Virus record (IMG/VR): IMGVR_UViG_3300043403_000146
Span: 1-20,040 of that record
From: a virus
Direction: 5' to 3' (one strand)
Length of the DNA: 20,040 nt
In this document: piece by piece, positions 1 to 6,552 of the stretch
Position numbering within the stretch: the stretch's first letter is position 1
Layout: every line of letters starts with the position of its first letter
The notes under the pieces: generated by a model
Database searches by the model: none
Told to the model about the DNA's origin: nothing
What the model saw: only the letters and a program-made list of their open reading frames with translations
Made by a program: the position numbers and the translations under genes

Positions 1-220
1 TAATAACGCGCTCAGCCGTAGCCTTTATATCTGGCTCTATGTGTTTCATCAGCTTTCCTAGGTAATCTTTTACTTCTGGCCGTGCAAATGTGTAACTGGC
101 AACAACCTCGGGATTTTTAGCTCGTGATCCTGCTCGCCGCGCCGCCTTGGCTCCATCGAAGTCAATCAGGTATTCGTGACAAAGCTTGCGCTGGAAAAGT
201 GTGAGGCCATCTTTTTTCAT
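1..220 (-). CDS. terS: Terminase small subunit, N-terminal part (runs off left edge)
   Basis: The 73 visible codons carry the Terminase_2 small-subunit signature: LTLFQRKLCHEYLIDFDG followed by AKAARRAG and PEVKDYL, matching the family's 'LT..Q..F..EYL.D.N...A..RAG...V..YL' helix-turn-helix region. Small terminases bind the packaging site on concatemeric DNA and hand it to the large-subunit ATPase/nuclease. The start is the ATG at 220, which overlaps the stop of the upstream gene as ATGA. The preceding Shine-Dalgarno sequence is weak, so translation is probably coupled. The large subunit would be expected next, beyond the left edge. Family assignment rests on N-terminal motif recognition only; the C-terminal oligomerisation region is outside the window. 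Confidence 0.8.
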   Translation of the reverse strand, partial: MKKDGLTLFQRKLCHEYLIDFDGAKAARRAGSRAKNPEVVASYTFARPEVKDYLGKLMKHIEPDIKATAERVI

Positions 221-618
221 TGTACAGTATCCGATGATGGGAAGTTATCGTTTGCCTCACCGGTTTCAAGCTTAACTGGCGCGCCAAGGAACTCGAGATT
301 TAGGCTTTCAATTTTCTTGTTGAACTCATTAGCAATAGCTTTGCTTGCCTCAGTACCCTCATCAGCAAGTTTATGTGTCGCTTGGATATGATCATAATAC
401 TTTTGCCTATCCTCAGCAGTGGCATTAATAGCTGGCAGGTCAATATTGTAAGTATCCTTACCGTCAAGCACGCGCACCTGAGCGCGCTGATCAACGCTGA
501 GAAATATACCAATTATTATACCTTCGCCTTCATGTGGCTCGGTTTTCATCGTTTTTACGTCCGTCCGGAGGCGGCAATATGTTACTCGTTTCCCCAATAA
601 TTCAACTTCCTTGTACAT
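217..618 (-). CDS. Unknown phage protein, 133 aa
   Basis: I do not recognise this protein. The start is set at the ATG at 618 because AGGAGA lies about 8 nt upstream. A longer reading to 807 would cover most of the upstream gene's C-terminus. From 618 the protein begins MYKEVELLGKRV. Residues about 30-55 look like a small beta-barrel (GEGIIIGIFLSVDQRAQVRV, like SH3/KOW-type phage proteins). A helical, charged segment follows (about 60-105), with a polar tail ending SSDTVQ. It overlaps the previous gene by 17 nt and the terminase gene by 4 nt (ATGA), so it sits in a tight translational chain between replication and packaging genes. A role in either process is inference only. Confidence 0.7.
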   Translation of the reverse strand: MYKEVELLGKRVTYCRLRTDVKTMKTEPHEGEGIIIGIFLSVDQRAQVRVLDGKDTYNIDLPAINATAEDRQKYYDHIQATHKLADEGTEASKAIANEFNKKIESLNLEFLGAPVKLETGEANDNFPSSDTVQ

Positions 619-1159
619 CACCTGTCTCCTTTTCAGTGTTAAATATTCTAGCGTTAAGTTCATCCATACGACGAGCCCATAAAAGCTGGTCTTCGGCCCT
701 TTCAGGATCAAGCCCAGCACGCCGCATTGCCATCTGGGTACGCCATTCCTTCCGATCCTCAAAGTGCTTTCCAACGCTATCCTTATAGGCTGTTGTAACA
801 TAATCAAGCTGTTGCCGCAAATGAGTATACGCTCCCTCTATCCTATCCAAACGTGGAAGCATTGAGGTAAGCATATCAATTTGATTGAATAGCTGGGTAT
901 TCATCTCGACCATATGCGCTACCTCGTAATTCATCCGCGCTGTATCAGCCTCAAGGTTCAAACGAGGATAATGAGGGTTTGGCTTCCCCTCAGCAGTCAT
1001 CTTGCTTTTATCTGCATGCTTGCGTTTTGCTAGCCAGTCTTCGCATAAAGCATGTCGAGCCTTCACATCAGAATACTTCATGCGCAGGAACTCGCGCTCA
1101 CTTTCATCGCTCATTGCGCCCCAGATATCACCATCATCAAAGTCCATTGGCTTTTTCAT
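602..1159 (-). CDS. Unknown phage protein, 185 aa, helical
   Basis: No family recognised. The protein is highly charged and predominantly helical. It starts MKKPMDFDDGDIWGAMSDES, has a Lys/Arg-rich stretch (LAKRKHADKSK, about residues 43-53), then a long heptad-like segment from about residue 75 to 135 (MNYEVAHMVEMNTQLFNQID, RLDRIEGAYTHLRQQLDYV) that could form a coiled coil. The ATG at 1159 overlaps the helicase stop as ATGA, with GGGTGA just upstream. Co-translation with the helicase and with the following gene suggests a replication- or packaging-associated job, but no motif supports a specific function. Confidence 0.75.
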   Translation of the reverse strand: MKKPMDFDDGDIWGAMSDESEREFLRMKYSDVKARHALCEDWLAKRKHADKSKMTAEGKPNPHYPRLNLEADTARMNYEVAHMVEMNTQLFNQIDMLTSMLPRLDRIEGAYTHLRQQLDYVTTAYKDSVGKHFEDRKEWRTQMAMRRAGLDPERAEDQLLWARRMDELNARIFNTEKETGDVQGS

Positions 1160-2952
1160 ATATCACCCGGCTCATAAGATTTTATACCATCTCCACTTTC
1201 GCCGTACTTATAGCTTGGCGTAACATCCAGAGGCGAGTATCGGCCGGTGCGCGTATCATAGGCCAGCTTAGTATTGCCACGCCTACCGATGTGCTTGAAG
1301 CGCACCTTGTTGACGTATATCTCAGTGGCATCATCTACGCTATCTGCGCGGTGGACCACTATCCCATTGTCGCACATATTCACAAAGTGGGCAGAGCCTG
1401 CGCAGTCATACAAAGATGGTGGTGGTATCTTCCCAGTCTTTCGATCCTTCTCTTGCTGCTTTGGGTGAACTACCAGCCATGTATGCACACCGTAGTTGGC
1501 ATTGAAGCGGAGGATTCTGGGTAGGGCCTGAGCAACGTAATCAGTCTCCGACCTCATACCATCCATCTTCTTCTCAATGCGGTTCCACGGGTCTATAATG
1601 AGGCCCTTTATGCCCTTACGGAGAACTGCATCGACAGCACGATCGAGAATCCAGTCTAAGGTAGGCATCTCATCCTTGCTCTCAATGAAAGTCCAATGCT
1701 TTCGCACCCAAAGTGATCCTTGGTGGAACGTATCAAAGCTCATGCGTTCCTTGTGTTTTGGATCTGCACTCATCTCGACGCGCTTCTCAATCAGCTTGAT
1801 TGAATGAAGCTCCTTGCCATTTTCAGGAGAGAATGCAGCAAACTTCCAGCCGTGGTTCAGCGCGAGGTTGACATTTAGGGCATCGATCCACTCCGACTTA
1901 CCACTGTTCGGGATGCCCGTCACAAGAGTGAGGCCCGGGGTCGATACGGTGTAGAGCTCATCAACGTTCTTCCAGCCAGTACCAACACCTGAGGCCATGC
2001 CATCGGTAAACATCGAGATAAGCTCTTTCTCAAAGTCATCGATCTCATATAGGCCGCTAATAGGTAGGGGCTTTGCCTCATTGATATCCGCGCACACATC
2101 ATTCTCACCCATCTCTTGCTGAGTTTTTAGCAGCGTGCCACGCAGGTACTTCACCACCTTACACTTGCCGGGCCCAATACGCCGTGCCAGCTCTTGACGC
2201 ATTGCCATACCAGCAGCACCATCATCAAAGGCAAATATTACAGTGTCGCATTTCTGGATGAGGTCAGCCGCTGCAGATAGGAATCGATAGCGATCACTCT
2301 CTGGCTCGTATTCATCTGTGCGGCCATCCGGTACATCGCCGCCATTTGGAACAGCGAGAACATTATCAAAGCCAAGTGACGTTAGGGCTATGGCATCAAG
2401 CTCTCGGTGGGAAATAATAACTGTTTTGATGAGAGGATTAAATCTATCCAACCCATAGAACACTACCCGACGCGCTGAGGCAAGTCTGCTTGCGCCAGTT
2501 GGTACTGATATTAACGCACTATTAATGAATTCGGCCCCATCAAAGTACGGGACTTTGATTGATGAGCTATCAGCATGCCACGACAGCTTGCGTAAATGAG
2601 CAGCCTCAATCCCAATTCCATAACCACGAAGAAAATCAAGTGCCGGTATTGGGAGCTCAGATGTAGGCTGTACTAGTTCACTGACAGGAGCCTCACACGG
2701 AAAGGCGGTAGGTTCTTGGGCCTTTACTGGTTCCGTGCCGATGTGCCCACTCCAGAGGCAATGGCGGCACTTCCAGCGCGCGTAGTCAGGCGGGGCTATG
2801 TCTACCCGCAGAGGGGTTGGATCAGTGCCCTTGCGGGCCGCTTGGCAGTATTCCTTGGGGCAATCAATCTCGAAGTGGCTAGGGTGTATATGCTGGGCCG
2901 TAAGCTTGAGGATAATACCCTGCTCCTTGAGCTGCGTAGATAGTTTCTTCAT
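1156..2952 (-). CDS. Replicative DNA helicase-primase, T7 gp4/Twinkle type, TOPRIM degenerate
   Basis: The 598-aa protein has the domain order of phage T7 gp4 and mitochondrial Twinkle. An N-terminal zinc finger has four Cys (C31, C36, C62, C65). A TOPRIM-like region spans about 175-295. A RecA-fold DnaB-type helicase spans about 325-580, with Walker A GIPNSGKS (346-353), Walker B LIIDPW (451-456) and the H4-like segment SAHFVNMCDNGIVV (520-533). Such proteins unwind DNA as a hexameric ring at the fork, and gp4 also makes RNA primers. Here the TOPRIM acidic residues are altered: the usual 'tEGE.DA' reads SHRELDA (181-187) and the usual 'DnDepG' reads DDGAAG (243-248). Helicase activity is therefore well supported, while primase activity is doubtful. 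The start at 2952 overlaps the upstream stop as ATGA. Confidence 0.93.
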   Translation of the reverse strand: MKKLSTQLKEQGIILKLTAQHIHPSHFEIDCPKEYCQAARKGTDPTPLRVDIAPPDYARWKCRHCLWSGHIGTEPVKAQEPTAFPCEAPVSELVQPTSELPIPALDFLRGYGIGIEAAHLRKLSWHADSSSIKVPYFDGAEFINSALISVPTGASRLASARRVVFYGLDRFNPLIKTVIISHRELDAIALTSLGFDNVLAVPNGGDVPDGRTDEYEPESDRYRFLSAAADLIQKCDTVIFAFDDGAAGMAMRQELARRIGPGKCKVVKYLRGTLLKTQQEMGENDVCADINEAKPLPISGLYEIDDFEKELISMFTDGMASGVGTGWKNVDELYTVSTPGLTLVTGIPNSGKSEWIDALNVNLALNHGWKFAAFSPENGKELHSIKLIEKRVEMSADPKHKERMSFDTFHQGSLWVRKHWTFIESKDEMPTLDWILDRAVDAVLRKGIKGLIIDPWNRIEKKMDGMRSETDYVAQALPRILRFNANYGVHTWLVVHPKQQEKDRKTGKIPPPSLYDCAGSAHFVNMCDNGIVVHRADSVDDATEIYVNKVRFKHIGRRGNTKLAYDTRTGRYSPLDVTPSYKYGESGDGIKSYEPGDI

Positions 2953-3386
2953 AGTGAGAATCCGCGACGATCAAGGGTGGTAGCACTGGCGCGCTTCACT
3001 CTCGGGCTGTCGGGCTTTATCGAAAGGAATCCTTTATTGAAATAGTTTTGAAACGCCGCTCTAAAGTCTGCGTAAGGCTTTGCCTTGCTGATCATATCGG
3101 TGCGGAACTCTTCGACGAGCTGGGCCATTGTGTCGATTGCGTAATTATTGCGATCTAGCCAGTCGATCATCATACGAATATCGAGGCGTTTGCCTTGGGC
3201 GGTTTCCCACTCTTGCAAAGTAATTGCTGTTTTAGAAGCTTTCGCCTTTGGAGTACGGATGGTCTCCGCTTTTTTTTCCTCAATCCGCTCTACAGCAAGA
3301 TTGATAATACGAATGGTTTGCTTTTTTGAATCTGGTGAAAGTTTCGAGTTTCTGATTTCTTCGACAACTTGCTTGATGGTAGCCAT
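2949..3386 (-). CDS. Unknown, possible replication accessory protein, 145 aa
   Basis: The start ATG at 3386 has AGGAG about 7 nt upstream. Residues 1-60 are charged and helical (MATIKQVVEEIRNSKLS). The C-terminal half (about 60-130) contains EWETAQGKRLDIRMMIDWLD and then YADFRAAFQNYFNKGFLSIK. The latter resembles the short helical 'F..yw..kG' segments at the C-termini of phage replication initiators and helicase loaders, but this is a loose likeness. Its position, first in the operon and directly coupled to the replicative helicase (ATGA overlap), is where phages often place an initiator or loader. This supports the guess without proving it. The repeated element at 3438-3455 lies just upstream. 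Confidence 0.75.
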   Translation of the reverse strand: MATIKQVVEEIRNSKLSPDSKKQTIRIINLAVERIEEKKAETIRTPKAKASKTAITLQEWETAQGKRLDIRMMIDWLDRNNYAIDTMAQLVEEFRTDMISKAKPYADFRAAFQNYFNKGFLSIKPDSPRVKRASATTLDRRGFSL

Positions 3387-3421
3387 AAATTCTCCTGTTT
3401 TAAGTTCGCCCGTTTCCCGCA

Positions 3422-3438
3422 GGCATATCTGTTATGCC
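3422..3438. promoter_or_regulatory. Perfect 6-5-6 palindrome, candidate operator
   Basis: The sequence reads GGCATA-TCTGT-TATGCC: perfect 6-bp arms around 5 bp. It lies 36-52 bp upstream of the start at 3386 and directly abuts the repeated element at 3438-3455. There is no T-run, so it is not a terminator. In this position it could be a repressor site in the leftward promoter region or a hairpin in the 5' leader. Confidence 0.4.
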
Positions 3439-3455
3439 ACAAATTTATTTTCGTG
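3438..3455 (-). promoter_or_regulatory. Repeated control element, copy 1
   Basis: The 17-mer ACAAATTTATTTTCGTG (3439-3455, + strand) recurs exactly at 6237-6253. With the preceding C it forms an imperfect dyad, CAC....GTG at the ends, with 12 of 18 positions symmetric. Both copies lie 40-55 bp upstream of the first gene of a leftward operon. That placement suggests an operator or promoter element shared by the two operons. No clear -35/-10 pair is visible at this copy. Confidence 0.5.
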
Positions 3456-3598
3456 TGAAGTAGTTTCTTGATTGGGTTTTGATTAATTTATGTTGGTGGT
3501 GGTGGATCAGGAATGTTTTGGGAAACGCCGACCCACCACCGAGGCTTTACTCCGCACAGGATACGAAGAAGCATCTCGTATTATGCTATAAAAAAAAC

Positions 3599-3973
3599 TT
3601 ACTGGCAATCACGATTCTTAAGATATGATGAACACATTGAGCAAAGAGCTCTTTCTTTAGGGATTGAATCACCGCATCCATCAAGCGCGTGCATAGCCTG
3701 TGGCCCTTGGTTCTCAAGCTTGCATACCGTCCCAAATCCAATTATTATATGTGCCTTACTTGATAATTTATCTTCATTCCACCCATACCGCATCGGGCCT
3801 CGTTTTTCAAGTATCTGCATAGCAACTTTTTTACGCTTTAATTTCTTTTTTAATTTGCGCTTCCATTTACTGGTCGTATTTTTAGGTTTGTTACCTCTAC
3901 CATCAATAGACCCTTGATAAGCTATCTTTGCGGTAAGAGTAGCTTTTTCCCAATTCATTTTAGCCATAAACAT
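3599..3973 (-). CDS. Unknown Lys-rich, Cys-containing protein, 124 aa
   Basis: The start is placed at ATG 3973 (MFMAKMNWEK), 6 nt after GGAGG. A second ATG at 3967 is possible. The same frame stays open to a GTG at 4096, but that extension has no good ribosome site at its start. The protein has a strongly basic patch (SKWKRKLKKKLKRKK, about residues 34-48) and a C-terminal half with several Cys: GTVC, GCGD, CSMC and a Cys near the end (NRDCQ). This could be a zinc-binding, nucleic-acid-associated protein. I do not recognise the family. It is the last gene before the second control region and lies downstream of the resolvase gene, separated by the candidate small-RNA locus. Confidence 0.6.
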   Translation of the reverse strand: MFMAKMNWEKATLTAKIAYQGSIDGRGNKPKNTTSKWKRKLKKKLKRKKVAMQILEKRGPMRYGWNEDKLSSKAHIIIGFGTVCKLENQGPQAMHALDGCGDSIPKERALCSMCSSYLKNRDCQ

Positions 3974-4303
3974 TCCCTTCCTCCATAGCTTCGCACTTTC
4001 CCTCCTGCGAGTATGTGCGCAGGCCAGTGACCAACCGGAGGCATTATTGCCTAGGTACTCATTTACTTTCGGGGCCTTTCGACCCCACATAGTCACACTC
4101 TACTATGCCCTCCGCCACATTTTTTAGGCTGTGGCCTATTATCTCTTATTCCCTTGGTCAAGGGGCTGGACGTGATAACAGTGATCGCCCTTCCGGGGGA
4201 TGCCCGAACAAACTCGCAGGTTCCTGTTGTCAGTGCTCGACAGCGCAGGACTTTTTTCACATTTTTGAAAGCGGTAGATGTGCAAACCGTGAGCCACACA
4301 TCA
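3974..4303. other. 330 bp without a convincing gene
   Basis: Three short frames are open here: + 4105-4308, - 4093-4299, and the 5' extension of the 3599-3973 gene. None has a ribosome site and recognisable protein features together. Small dyads are present: GCCACA...TGTGGC at about 4114-4135 and CCCTTG-GT-CAAGGG at 4151-4164. Neither is followed by a T-run. This would be the leader between the resolvase gene and the next leftward gene. I see no clear leftward promoter in it. Confidence 0.5.
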
Positions 4304-4345
4304 CATAGTTGACAAATTGCTAGAAAACTCTAGAATCTAACTATG
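4304..4345 (+). promoter_or_regulatory. Sigma70-type promoter inside nested inverted repeats
   Basis: TTGACA at 4309-4314, a 16-bp spacer and TAGAAT at 4331-4336 make a near-consensus rightward promoter, with a predicted start near 4343. It is bracketed by CATAGTT (4304-4310) and AACTATG (4339-4345). Between -35 and -10 sits a second dyad, CTAGA-AAAC-TCTAG (4320-4333), which overlaps the -10. A bound dimer there would block the polymerase, so this looks regulated. No rightward protein gene follows; the product appears to be the short RNA at 4343-4416. Confidence 0.6.
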
Positions 4346-4416
4346 TATCGAGGACTGCGGCTACAGACTCGATATGGGCCTCGGTATTTTAGGATCACCG
4401 GGGCCATTCTTTTTTT
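4343..4416 (+). ncRNA. Candidate small RNA of about 74 nt with two hairpins
   Basis: A promoter just upstream and an intrinsic terminator at the end delimit a short RNA on the + strand, opposite the leftward operon. Hairpin 1 has a perfect 7-bp outer stem, TATCGAG (4346-4352) with CTCGATA (4368-4374), and an inner CTG/CAG stem (4355-4357 with 4364-4366) around the loop CGGCTA. Hairpin 2 is the terminator stem. The RNA is antisense to the intergenic stretch just after the resolvase stop, and its last two bases overlap that stop codon. The arrangement resembles phage antisense RNAs such as lambda OOP. Sequence homology is not claimed. An AUG at the predicted start opens a frame through the terminator, but this looks like chance. 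Confidence 0.55.
4377..4416 (+). terminator. Rho-independent terminator (rightward)
   Basis: GGCCTCGGT (4377-4385) pairs with ACCGGGGCC (4397-4405) over 9 bp with one T-G wobble around an 11-nt loop. It is followed by ATTC and a run of seven T (4410-4416). The T-run lies on the + strand side, so it ends rightward transcripts. On the other strand no T-run follows the stem. Confidence 0.7.
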
Positions 4417-4981
4417 ATGCTCCCTTTACACCCACGTTGTCAAGCATCACTTGCTGAGTCGCAGCGAAGCTAGGTTTTATACCCCTGCGCATAGCAACCA
4501 CCCAGAAGAGGGCAATAGCGTCGCATTCGTTATCATTATTGCGTGTGCCGCGTGTGCCGTTCTTCCAACCAAGGTTCATTGCTACTTCACACATAGCTTC
4601 CTTCTTGGCATTCCCGCTGCCGGTAAAATCTTTTTTGATGGTTCCCACTGGTAACGAGCGAAGTGGGATATTGTGCACGAGAGAAAACACCTCAAGCTGG
4701 CCCAGCATACGGCCATACATAATCGCGGCACTATTGCCCTTAAAAAACATTGTGACTTCTTCAAAGATAATTTCATGAACCAAGTGCACCGGCTCGCCAT
4801 TGCGTTCCCCGATGCAGTTCTCGTAGAGCCATTCCTGAAAGCGTAGGAGGCGTTTACCAGGATGAGTGCGTAGTTTATCAAAGAGGGCTACCTCACCACT
4901 CCTCTCAATCATGCCCTCAACGCCAAGGGCGAAGCCTATGGTGCTGCCAAGATCAAGTGCTAGAGTGGTGAGGCCCGTCAT
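4415..4981 (-). CDS. RuvC-like Holliday junction resolvase (RNase H fold)
   Basis: The 188-aa protein has the motif order of phage RuvC-type crossover-junction nucleases: LALDLGSTIGFAL with D10, IIFEEV with E74/E75, a mid-protein KK pair (126-127) after GSGNA, and DNECDAIAL with D150 and D154 near the end. These enzymes cut four-way and branched DNA using an acidic, two-metal site; phages use them to resolve replication and recombination intermediates before packaging. All expected acidic residues are present and the length is normal for the family. ATG 4981 follows the upstream stop by 1 nt (TGATATG), with GAGAGGG as ribosome site. The strand assignment and motifs make this call firm; preference for particular junctions cannot be read from sequence. 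Confidence 0.9.
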   Translation of the reverse strand: MTGLTTLALDLGSTIGFALGVEGMIERSGEVALFDKLRTHPGKRLLRFQEWLYENCIGERNGEPVHLVHEIIFEEVTMFFKGNSAAIMYGRMLGQLEVFSLVHNIPLRSLPVGTIKKDFTGSGNAKKEAMCEVAMNLGWKNGTRGTRNNDNECDAIALFWVVAMRRGIKPSFAATQQVMLDNVGVKGA

Positions 4982-4982
4982 A

Positions 4983-5414
4983 TCAACCCTCTCTGTGTAG
5001 GGTCTCTACAGAGGTCTTGTTGCTTGGATCAACATACTCTTCTTCAGTGCGTGCAATCGTATCCGCATTAAGATCAAGTGAGTGCTGATAGCCAAGCGCA
5101 ATCTTGAGATCAGCATGACCGCTCTCAAACTGTACGCGCGCATCATTCGCAAGCTTGCGCAGGCGCATCTCATGAGCAAAAACACTCGAGAGAACACCGT
5201 ACTCAGATTTTACCTTGTTACGGATATCACGCTCTGCCTTGCCAAGAGCCTTCTTCTGCTCGTTAATGGCAAGCATCTCATCAACCGCAGCAACAAGACC
5301 CCCTACAACTTCAGCACTATTATGGCCAATAGTTTTGATAGGGGTAACTACGGCTTTTTCTTTCTTTGGTTTTTTCACTTTCTCGAAGTGTTCTTTTACA
5401 GCTGCTTTAGGCAT
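4983..5414 (-). CDS. GapR/DUF2312-like DNA-binding protein
   Basis: The 143-aa protein has a Lys-rich N-terminus (residues 1-25) and then KTIGHNSAEVVGG. IGHNS is a hallmark near the start of many alphaproteobacterial GapR-type proteins. The rest follows the GapR helical layout: an 'E.KKAL....DI' helix (NEQKKALGKAERDI), a G about 15 residues later, RLRKLAND, and an ending IALGYQ like the family's 'ALGM'. GapR coats AT-rich, overtwisted DNA ahead of replication forks and acts with topoisomerases. A phage copy beside the resolvase could aid replication or compete with host GapR; that is inference. AGGAG lies 7 nt before the ATG. Its start overlaps the upstream stop by 8 nt (ATGCCTAA). The N-terminal 25 residues and about 25 extra C-terminal residues are longer than typical GapR. 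Confidence 0.6.
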   Translation of the reverse strand: MPKAAVKEHFEKVKKPKKEKAVVTPIKTIGHNSAEVVGGLVAAVDEMLAINEQKKALGKAERDIRNKVKSEYGVLSSVFAHEMRLRKLANDARVQFESGHADLKIALGYQHSLDLNADTIARTEEEYVDPSNKTSVETLHREG

Positions 5415-5919
5415 TGGTTTTCTCCTCTAGTGCATGCTGCGCAACATGATCATTTAGGTGAATAATTGCATCTCCAAGACTGCGCAGGATCTCAGATTGC
5501 GTGGTAGATTGTTCAAGCAGTCCTTCATAACGAATTTTTGAAGCGCGAACAAAGCCATTGATTGCAGCAGCAAGTTGTTGCTCTGGGCTAGTGTCAGATG
5601 CCGGAACAACTACTACATCACTGTAAATAGCCTTTTCCATGTGAGCATTCGCTTCTTCTTGGGACAACTCTTCTTCAAGATTAGATATGTTTTGAGCAAC
5701 TGCAGCTAAAACATCAGGATTAACAAACATGCGCGGAGCTTCATTCGTGGCGGGGATAGCAGATCCCACCGCAAGCGAGGCATCGGATTGCACCCCGAAT
5801 GATGCGTCTAAGTGGGTCGCGGCAGCAACATCCAAAGGGTCGGCTTGTGATGCCTCCTGATTCTGAGCGGCACTTTCTAAATGCTCAATGGTAGTGGTAA
5901 CTATTTCTGGATTACTCAT
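5407..5919 (-). CDS. Unknown acidic protein, 170 aa
   Basis: No family recognised. Residues 1-60 are Ala/Ser/Asp/Glu-rich and probably disordered. From about residue 65 the protein becomes helical: LAAVAQNISNLEEELSQEEA, then an ending with ILRSLGDAIIHLNDHVAQHA that could form an oligomerising helix. The start ATG 5919 has AAGGAGA about 6 nt upstream. It overlaps the gene before it and the one after it by 8 nt each (ATGAGTAA and ATGCCTAA), so it is the middle member of a coupled early trio. Overall acidity and small size would fit a protein-binding or DNA-mimic role, but nothing specific supports that. Confidence 0.7.
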   Translation of the reverse strand: MSNPEIVTTTIEHLESAAQNQEASQADPLDVAAATHLDASFGVQSDASLAVGSAIPATNEAPRMFVNPDVLAAVAQNISNLEEELSQEEANAHMEKAIYSDVVVVPASDTSPEQQLAAAINGFVRASKIRYEGLLEQSTTQSEILRSLGDAIIHLNDHVAQHALEEKTNA

Positions 5920-6199
5920 AAATTCTCCTTGTTAATTTAATGGGGGTTAGAACAGCTTTATCCCACTTCTTAGGTGGAACTGGGTTTTGAATAAAGGCGA
6001 GGATATCATCCATCTTACTGGTACGCACATCCCCTCCACTTTCAAGCCTTTCCCATAGGCCAGAATCACGACAAGCGGCCCAGCCGAATGCCTCACCATC
6101 CAGCCACCCGTGCGCAAGATTTGCGTCAAGGAAGCGATGGATGTTGTGGAGCAGCCATGCTCTGGTAGTGTCAAATTGTGGTTCCTGTAGGTAAGCCAT
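5912..6199 (-). CDS. Putative small HTH regulator, 95 aa
   Basis: This is the first gene of the leftward early operon. Residues about 14-70 (WLLHNIHRFLDANLAHGWLD, then EAFGWAACRDSGLWERLESG, GDVRTSKMDDILAFIQ) follow the layout of a small helix-turn-helix family common in alphaproteobacterial genomes: 'F......S...G..A..D...V..LR.G......T...V..FI'. The tail (about 72-95) is Lys/Pro-rich. First-gene position beside the divergent control region suits a Cro- or antirepressor-type regulator that acts on the repeated element 38 bp upstream. Function is inferred from this likeness and context. The ATG at 6199 has only a weak ribosome site; the 8-nt ATGAGTAA overlap with the next gene supports the frame. 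Confidence 0.6.
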   Translation of the reverse strand: MAYLQEPQFDTTRAWLLHNIHRFLDANLAHGWLDGEAFGWAACRDSGLWERLESGGDVRTSKMDDILAFIQNPVPPKKWDKAVLTPIKLTRRIYE

Positions 6200-6345: not shown

Positions 6346-6552
6346 ATGATAAATTCAACTTACGGCGCGGGATTCCGCGCAGGTTTTGCTAGACCAGCTT
6401 TAAGCAAACCTCGTGCTGACGGCACAAGATTAATACTCGAACCTGTATGCCCATTTCCATCATGGAGGTTTATCAGCTTTGCATTATGGCATAGCGGTCG
6501 CATTGATGGGCAAATGAAACGCCTTGTAAACCCGAATAGAAAGACTTGGTAA
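6346..6552 (+). CDS. Unknown small protein, 68 aa
   Basis: First gene of the rightward operon, with a good ribosome site (AGGAGA, 5 nt before the ATG). The product is basic and aromatic (MINSTYGAGFRAGFARPALS ... WRFISFALWHSGRIDGQMKR) and has no recognised domain. The stop shares one base with the next start (TAATG), so it is coupled to the exonuclease gene. First genes of early phage operons are often host-takeover or anti-defence factors; nothing in this sequence tells which, if either, applies. Confidence 0.7.
   Translation: MINSTYGAGFRAGFARPALSKPRADGTRLILEPVCPFPSWRFISFALWHSGRIDGQMKRLVNPNRKTW

Follow-up and report, generated by a model that had tools for sequence, protein, structure and literature searches.

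We report a probable small-RNA gene in a 20,040-base IMG/VR virus record (hereafter the window), and estimate the probability that it is genuine and new to be roughly 85%. The predicted RNA is ~70–75 nt in length (positions 4343–4417, + strand, both ends placed from the sequence), is composed of two adjacent hairpins preceded by a σ70-type promoter, and is convergent with the gene for a RuvC-like Holliday junction resolvase. From this one sequence alone, the first-pass annotation had proposed that a stand-alone small-RNA gene lies opposite the leftward transcript, immediately after the stop codon of the resolvase gene; when distant relatives were compared, the proposal stood up, supported by a conserved promoter and covarying stems. 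The locus offers a concrete and cheap target for RNA experiments.

Architecture of the locus

All genes flanking the locus (217–6199) point leftward. The resolvase gene, ruvC (4415–4981, − strand), matches PHROG 159 (E 2.6e-14) and PDB RuvC chains (E 0.004–0.006). Beyond a gap lies the next operon, which contains a 145-aa gene of unknown function and a primase/helicase gene (1156–3386, − strand; PHROG 239, E 6.7e-47 for the primase/helicase). As the first-pass annotation had noted, no rightward protein gene follows the small RNA: the first family-matched rightward gene is an exonuclease near 6546. No nucleotide similarity between the window and known phages was found, and a search of viral contigs for the exact promoter pattern gave no match.

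The promoter (4309–4336, + strand) consists of TTGACA (4309–4314), a 16-nt spacer and TAGAAT (4331–4336), and agrees with the consensus at 11 of 12 positions; the window holds two sites of at least 11/12, compared with 0.35 expected from shuffles. The 5′ hairpin (4346–4374) has a 7-bp lower stem, TATCGAG/CTCGATA (4346–4352/4368–4374), followed by a small internal loop, a 3-bp upper stem and a 6-nt loop. The second hairpin (4377–4405) is GC-rich and terminator-like, with a 9-bp stem, GGCCTCGGT/ACCGGGGCC (4377–4385/4397–4405), that includes one U-G pair and closes an 11-nt loop. A run of seven T (4410–4416) begins 4 nt past this stem, after the spacer ATTC, and overlaps the ruvC stop codon (4415–4417). 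The near-consensus promoter, the 7-bp hairpin and the 9-bp GC-rich stem with seven T had all been claimed beforehand, and all are present. We rejected the idea that the ATG at 4343 opens a leaderless mini-gene: reading in that frame meets no stop codon ahead of the T run and carries on through ruvC on the antisense strand.

The RNA 4343–4417 folds at −29.6 kcal/mol, compared with −16.8 (s.d. 3.0) for shuffled sequences (z −4.3); none of 200 shuffles was as low. Because the T run starts four bases past the stem, intrinsic termination is plausible rather than textbook, and this distance, together with the 11-nt loop, is why a strict terminator scan omits the window hairpin. Across the copies described below, the T tract generally lies 4–5 nt from the stem.

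Two dyads span the promoter. The outer one, of 8 bp (ACATAGTT/AACTATGT, 4303–4310/4339–4346), has a counterpart of that length in 67 of 5,000 shuffles; the inner one, of 5 bp (CTAGA/TCTAG, 4320–4324/4329–4333), is equalled in 53% of shuffles, and the two centres differ. The dyads had been read as nested elements that switch the promoter on and off. They do exist, but are weak in the window and significant in only three of six phages (L016, L004 and L017), so that an operator shared across phages was rejected; in the window they are at best a possible, weak candidate operator.

Relatives carrying the locus

Using primase/helicase and RuvC alignments, we identified six further IMG/VR phages with the cassette p143–ruvC–gap–145-aa gene–primase (L002, L003, L004, L005, L016 and L017), with RuvC proteins 45–62% identical to that of the window. 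The 145-aa and primase/helicase genes are found in all seven phages. The gap between ruvC and the 145-aa gene measures ~540–900 bases in all of them, and contains a small open reading frame in the window, L002 and L004. A terminase-based search gave no additional phage with the whole cassette, and a scan of the genome collection for the primase returned distant relatives only.

Five of the six cassette relatives (L003, L004, L005, L016 and L017) carry a copy at the same place and on the same strand. The shared plan is a σ70-like promoter, a hairpin, 1–3 nt, a GC-rich hairpin and usually a T-rich tail (poor in L003), and in every cassette phage carrying it the unit ends within ~50 bases of the ruvC stop, on the opposite strand. 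L002 does without the small RNA despite having the cassette; an open reading frame follows its ruvC, and no copy was found there. A probable copy outside the cassette occurs in L050, a phage found through its terminase: TTGACA-17-CATAAT and the same hairpin plan, ~18 bases after a gene that follows the one for a RusA resolvase; on the other side of the gap is an HNH gene. In four phages with related resolvases (AcaML1, WO and two Manatee Spring phages), no copy scored above chance.

Conservation of the promoter and covariation of the stems

Promoters were found at the corresponding place in all five relatives: TTGACT-17-TAAAAA (L003), TTGTTT-17-TAAATT (L004), TTGATT-16-TAAAAT (L005), TTGACT-17-TATACA (L016) and TTGACA-16-TAGATT (L017). 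The L004 promoter is weak (7/12, equalled in 43% of shuffles) and not significant alone; compared with shuffles of each flank, the relatives' promoters have a combined p of 3e-6. A standard scan picks up several of these elements on its own: both promoter and terminator in L005, the terminator in L004 and the promoter in L017. We also searched the seven phages (222 kb, counting both strands) with a mechanical descriptor made up of a promoter, two adjacent hairpins and a T tract. It gave five matches with a promoter of at least 9/12, four of which are the small-RNA loci, where ~0.8 would be expected anywhere, a surprise that is overstated because the descriptor was written after the loci had been seen.

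The stems are only 28–61% identical between phages, yet their pairing is maintained. In an alignment of five phages, 99% of cells are paired and both partners have changed in 18 of 23 pairs (11 of 11 in the 5′ hairpin, 7 of 12 in the GC-rich hairpin). Every slide or shuffle used as a control fell far below the real alignment. On a hand-made alignment, RNAalifold gave −34.2 for the + strand, compared with −2.8 for the best of 300 column shuffles. The 5′ hairpin came out misaligned when MAFFT was used by itself, which is why the sequences were aligned manually, with N as padding. Hand alignment favours structure, and we therefore used L004 as a held-out test: a covariance model built from five phages without L004 (R1) found the L004 copy as its best match in 19 kb (E 0.0011). 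The L050 locus is likewise the model's best match in that phage, but a weak one (E 0.78); the match in the window itself (4309–4417) arises by construction. The two comparisons suggested in advance, retention of the promoter and compensatory stem changes in relatives, thus both came out in favour of the gene.

These results bear on the simplest alternative, a chance adjacency of promoter-like and hairpin-like sequence. Single promoter matches of 9–10/12 are indeed common, but the same unit, with covarying stems, is present in five other phages; short of an error in the alignment, this contradicts chance adjacency, which we regard as very improbable. The curated Rfam score gave no match in the window or in L002–L005, except a tRNA in L005, and permissive thresholds applied to the window and L050 gave none or chance matches. 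Because shape and place are kept but letters are not, similarity searches miss such genes.

Strand of the functional RNA

Our initial idea, that the hairpins belong to the leftward (sense) RNA, was lowered after two strand tests. The first counted wobble pairs: there are five G-U cells among the counted pairs on the + strand and none on the other, and the count of 5 to 1 obtained when an unpaired C/A in L003 is read as G-U on the other strand is, for that reason, not decisive alone. The second compared folding energies: the + strand fold is more stable in six of six phages (in L003 by only 0.2 kcal/mol) and also in L050, and RNAalifold gives −34.2 for the + strand compared with −30.1 for the opposite one. 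Both tests point to the + strand, though they are suggestive and not decisive.

Both strands can nevertheless form the two hairpins, and further conserved sense-strand structure is present in the gap beyond. The functional RNA might then be the ruvC-sense strand, with the hairpins after the ruvC stop serving as a cis element of the mRNA (for example a 3′-end stabiliser, an attenuator or a put-like antitermination site that helps polymerase on into the replication genes) and the + promoter being secondary. The put sites of HK022 are comparable, with two stem-loops close together in ~70 nt (PMC9378689), but they act in cis and lie on the strand of the early mRNA, with no T run behind them. Model R1 matched no put site in HK022, its two chance-level matches there (33042 and 36877) being far from the cI–cro early promoter region, and in our phages only the + strand shows conservation of the promoter and the T-rich tail. 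We consider a sense-strand element unlikely.

The gap and the leader of the replication operon

The gap contains a non-coding stretch (3974–4302, − strand) that is structured in the window (fold z −2.1) and also in the relatives. Conserved sense-strand elements occur in window 4302–3974, L003 ~5010–5366, L004 4700–5060, L005 4935–5264 and L016 4030–4360; they include an inner hairpin enclosed by GUGYG..CRCAC pairing, the motifs ATATAGCGG and AAAGGGGGGTAGGGGGG (the latter without differences between L004 and L005) and CCGCACACCWCCGCAAAAACTCAGCA, common to L005 and L016. The small open reading frames in the gap differ per phage (window 3599–3973, − strand; L002 1943–2234; L004 5254–5491), and the lysine-rich 124-aa product of that in the window has no Pfam or PHROG match.

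A candidate leftward promoter of the next operon, TTGCCA-17-CATAAT (10/12), lies at 3580–3608 (− strand). By eye, counterparts of the type TTGxxx-17-xATxxT (7–10 of 12) precede the leader in all seven phages. The leader itself contains, in all seven, two hairpins with complementary loops (8–10 bp), the second of which is located just upstream of the next gene's start (window 3540–3408, − strand; L002 2554–2752; L003 5428–5530; L004 5122–5234; L005 5337–5530; L016 4433–4541; L017 4035–4141). The loop pair GUUUCCCAAA with UUUGGGAAAC changes together to UUUCCAAA/UUUGGAAA and to UUUCCAGA/UCUGGAAG; this looks like a conserved loop–loop element of the replication operon's leader, and may be more unusual than the small RNA itself. 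In L005, a tRNA-Met (CAT) is inserted in the leader hairpin region (5376–5450, + strand).

The small RNA could be one part of a group-specific, RNA-based control region that also comprises the sense-strand structures and the complementary-loop hairpins, and that would set replication or early–late order largely by RNA. We hold this to be doubtful; if true, such a combination would have no precedent among the lambdoid models that were compared.

Proposed function

We hypothesize that the small RNA works in the manner of lambda OOP, a reading by analogy to which we give about even odds and which is likelier than any single rival. The promoter at 4309–4336 would drive a ~75-nt two-hairpin RNA ending at the ruvC stop codon. 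Within the window's gap, the standard scan reports no terminator for leftward transcription, so that a polymerase leaving ruvC in this leftward early operon would enter the small-RNA gene and make its exact complement. The small RNA could then base-pair with the ruvC mRNA in its 3′ flank, so that the duplex would be cut and the message would decay; polymerases heading for the replication genes may also be hindered by the opposing promoter. The net effect would be that a convergent promoter and antisense RNA limit read-through from the ruvC operon into the next one. As a candidate promoter for leftward transcription lies past the small-RNA gene, the RNA could not govern replication-gene expression as a whole and would do no more than adjust read-through. 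Moreover, ruvC itself need not be the target, because L002 lacks the small RNA and the probable L050 copy adjoins a different operon.

Transcription might matter where the RNA does not: a convergent promoter and terminator would form a roadblock at which leftward polymerases are stopped by collision. The geometry is convergent in all copies, and in lambda the firing of pO lowers pR transcription and affects replication (PMC3985674). However, a roadblock needs only a promoter and a terminator, which leaves the 5′ hairpin unexplained, and both RNA stems covary. A pure roadblock is thus unlikely, although we rank it first among the alternatives.

The RNA might instead act in trans on host or other phage mRNAs, its place being conserved as a regulatory hub. 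The probable L050 copy beside a different operon would fit, as would the recurrence of some loop letters (GUGCCA in L005 and L017). However, the RNA is nearly fully paired and offers almost no single-stranded seed of the kind that trans-acting RNAs usually have, and none of the eight early gene starts compared (some at approximate positions) pairs with it above chance. Action in trans therefore appears improbable, more so than either the roadblock or the sense-strand element, and we retain the OOP-like antisense RNA as the preferred reading.

Comparison with known systems

Plasmid copy-control RNAs are short, structured and transcribed from a promoter opposing their target. The same is true of P22 sar and lambda aQ (PMC12197685). 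The sar, aQ and plasmid RNAs cover a gene start, coding sequence or a replication leader, whereas the window RNA faces only a 3′ flank.

Lambda OOP, which promotes decay of the cII mRNA through RNase III (PMC12197685), had been named as an analogue by the first-pass annotation. The analogy holds for plan and position, but not for sequence: model R1 had no match in lambda 37500–40500 at E up to 5, and no sequence similarity to OOP was found. There are further differences. OOP overlaps the coding end of cII, whereas the window RNA lies next to ruvC and reaches no further into that gene than the stop codon; the genes on both sides are others; and a second leftward promoter candidate lies beyond the window RNA. 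Put through the same steps, OOP nevertheless displays the same plan: its own σ70 promoter (TTGAGT-17-CATAAT), a 5′ hairpin and a GC-rich hairpin followed by T6, in an RNA of similar length that is convergent with the early operon, at the cII end and in front of the replication gene O, as the window RNA is in front of its replication genes. This suggests that OOP-type convergent RNAs before replication genes also occur in phages whose lineage has no sequence relationship to lambda.
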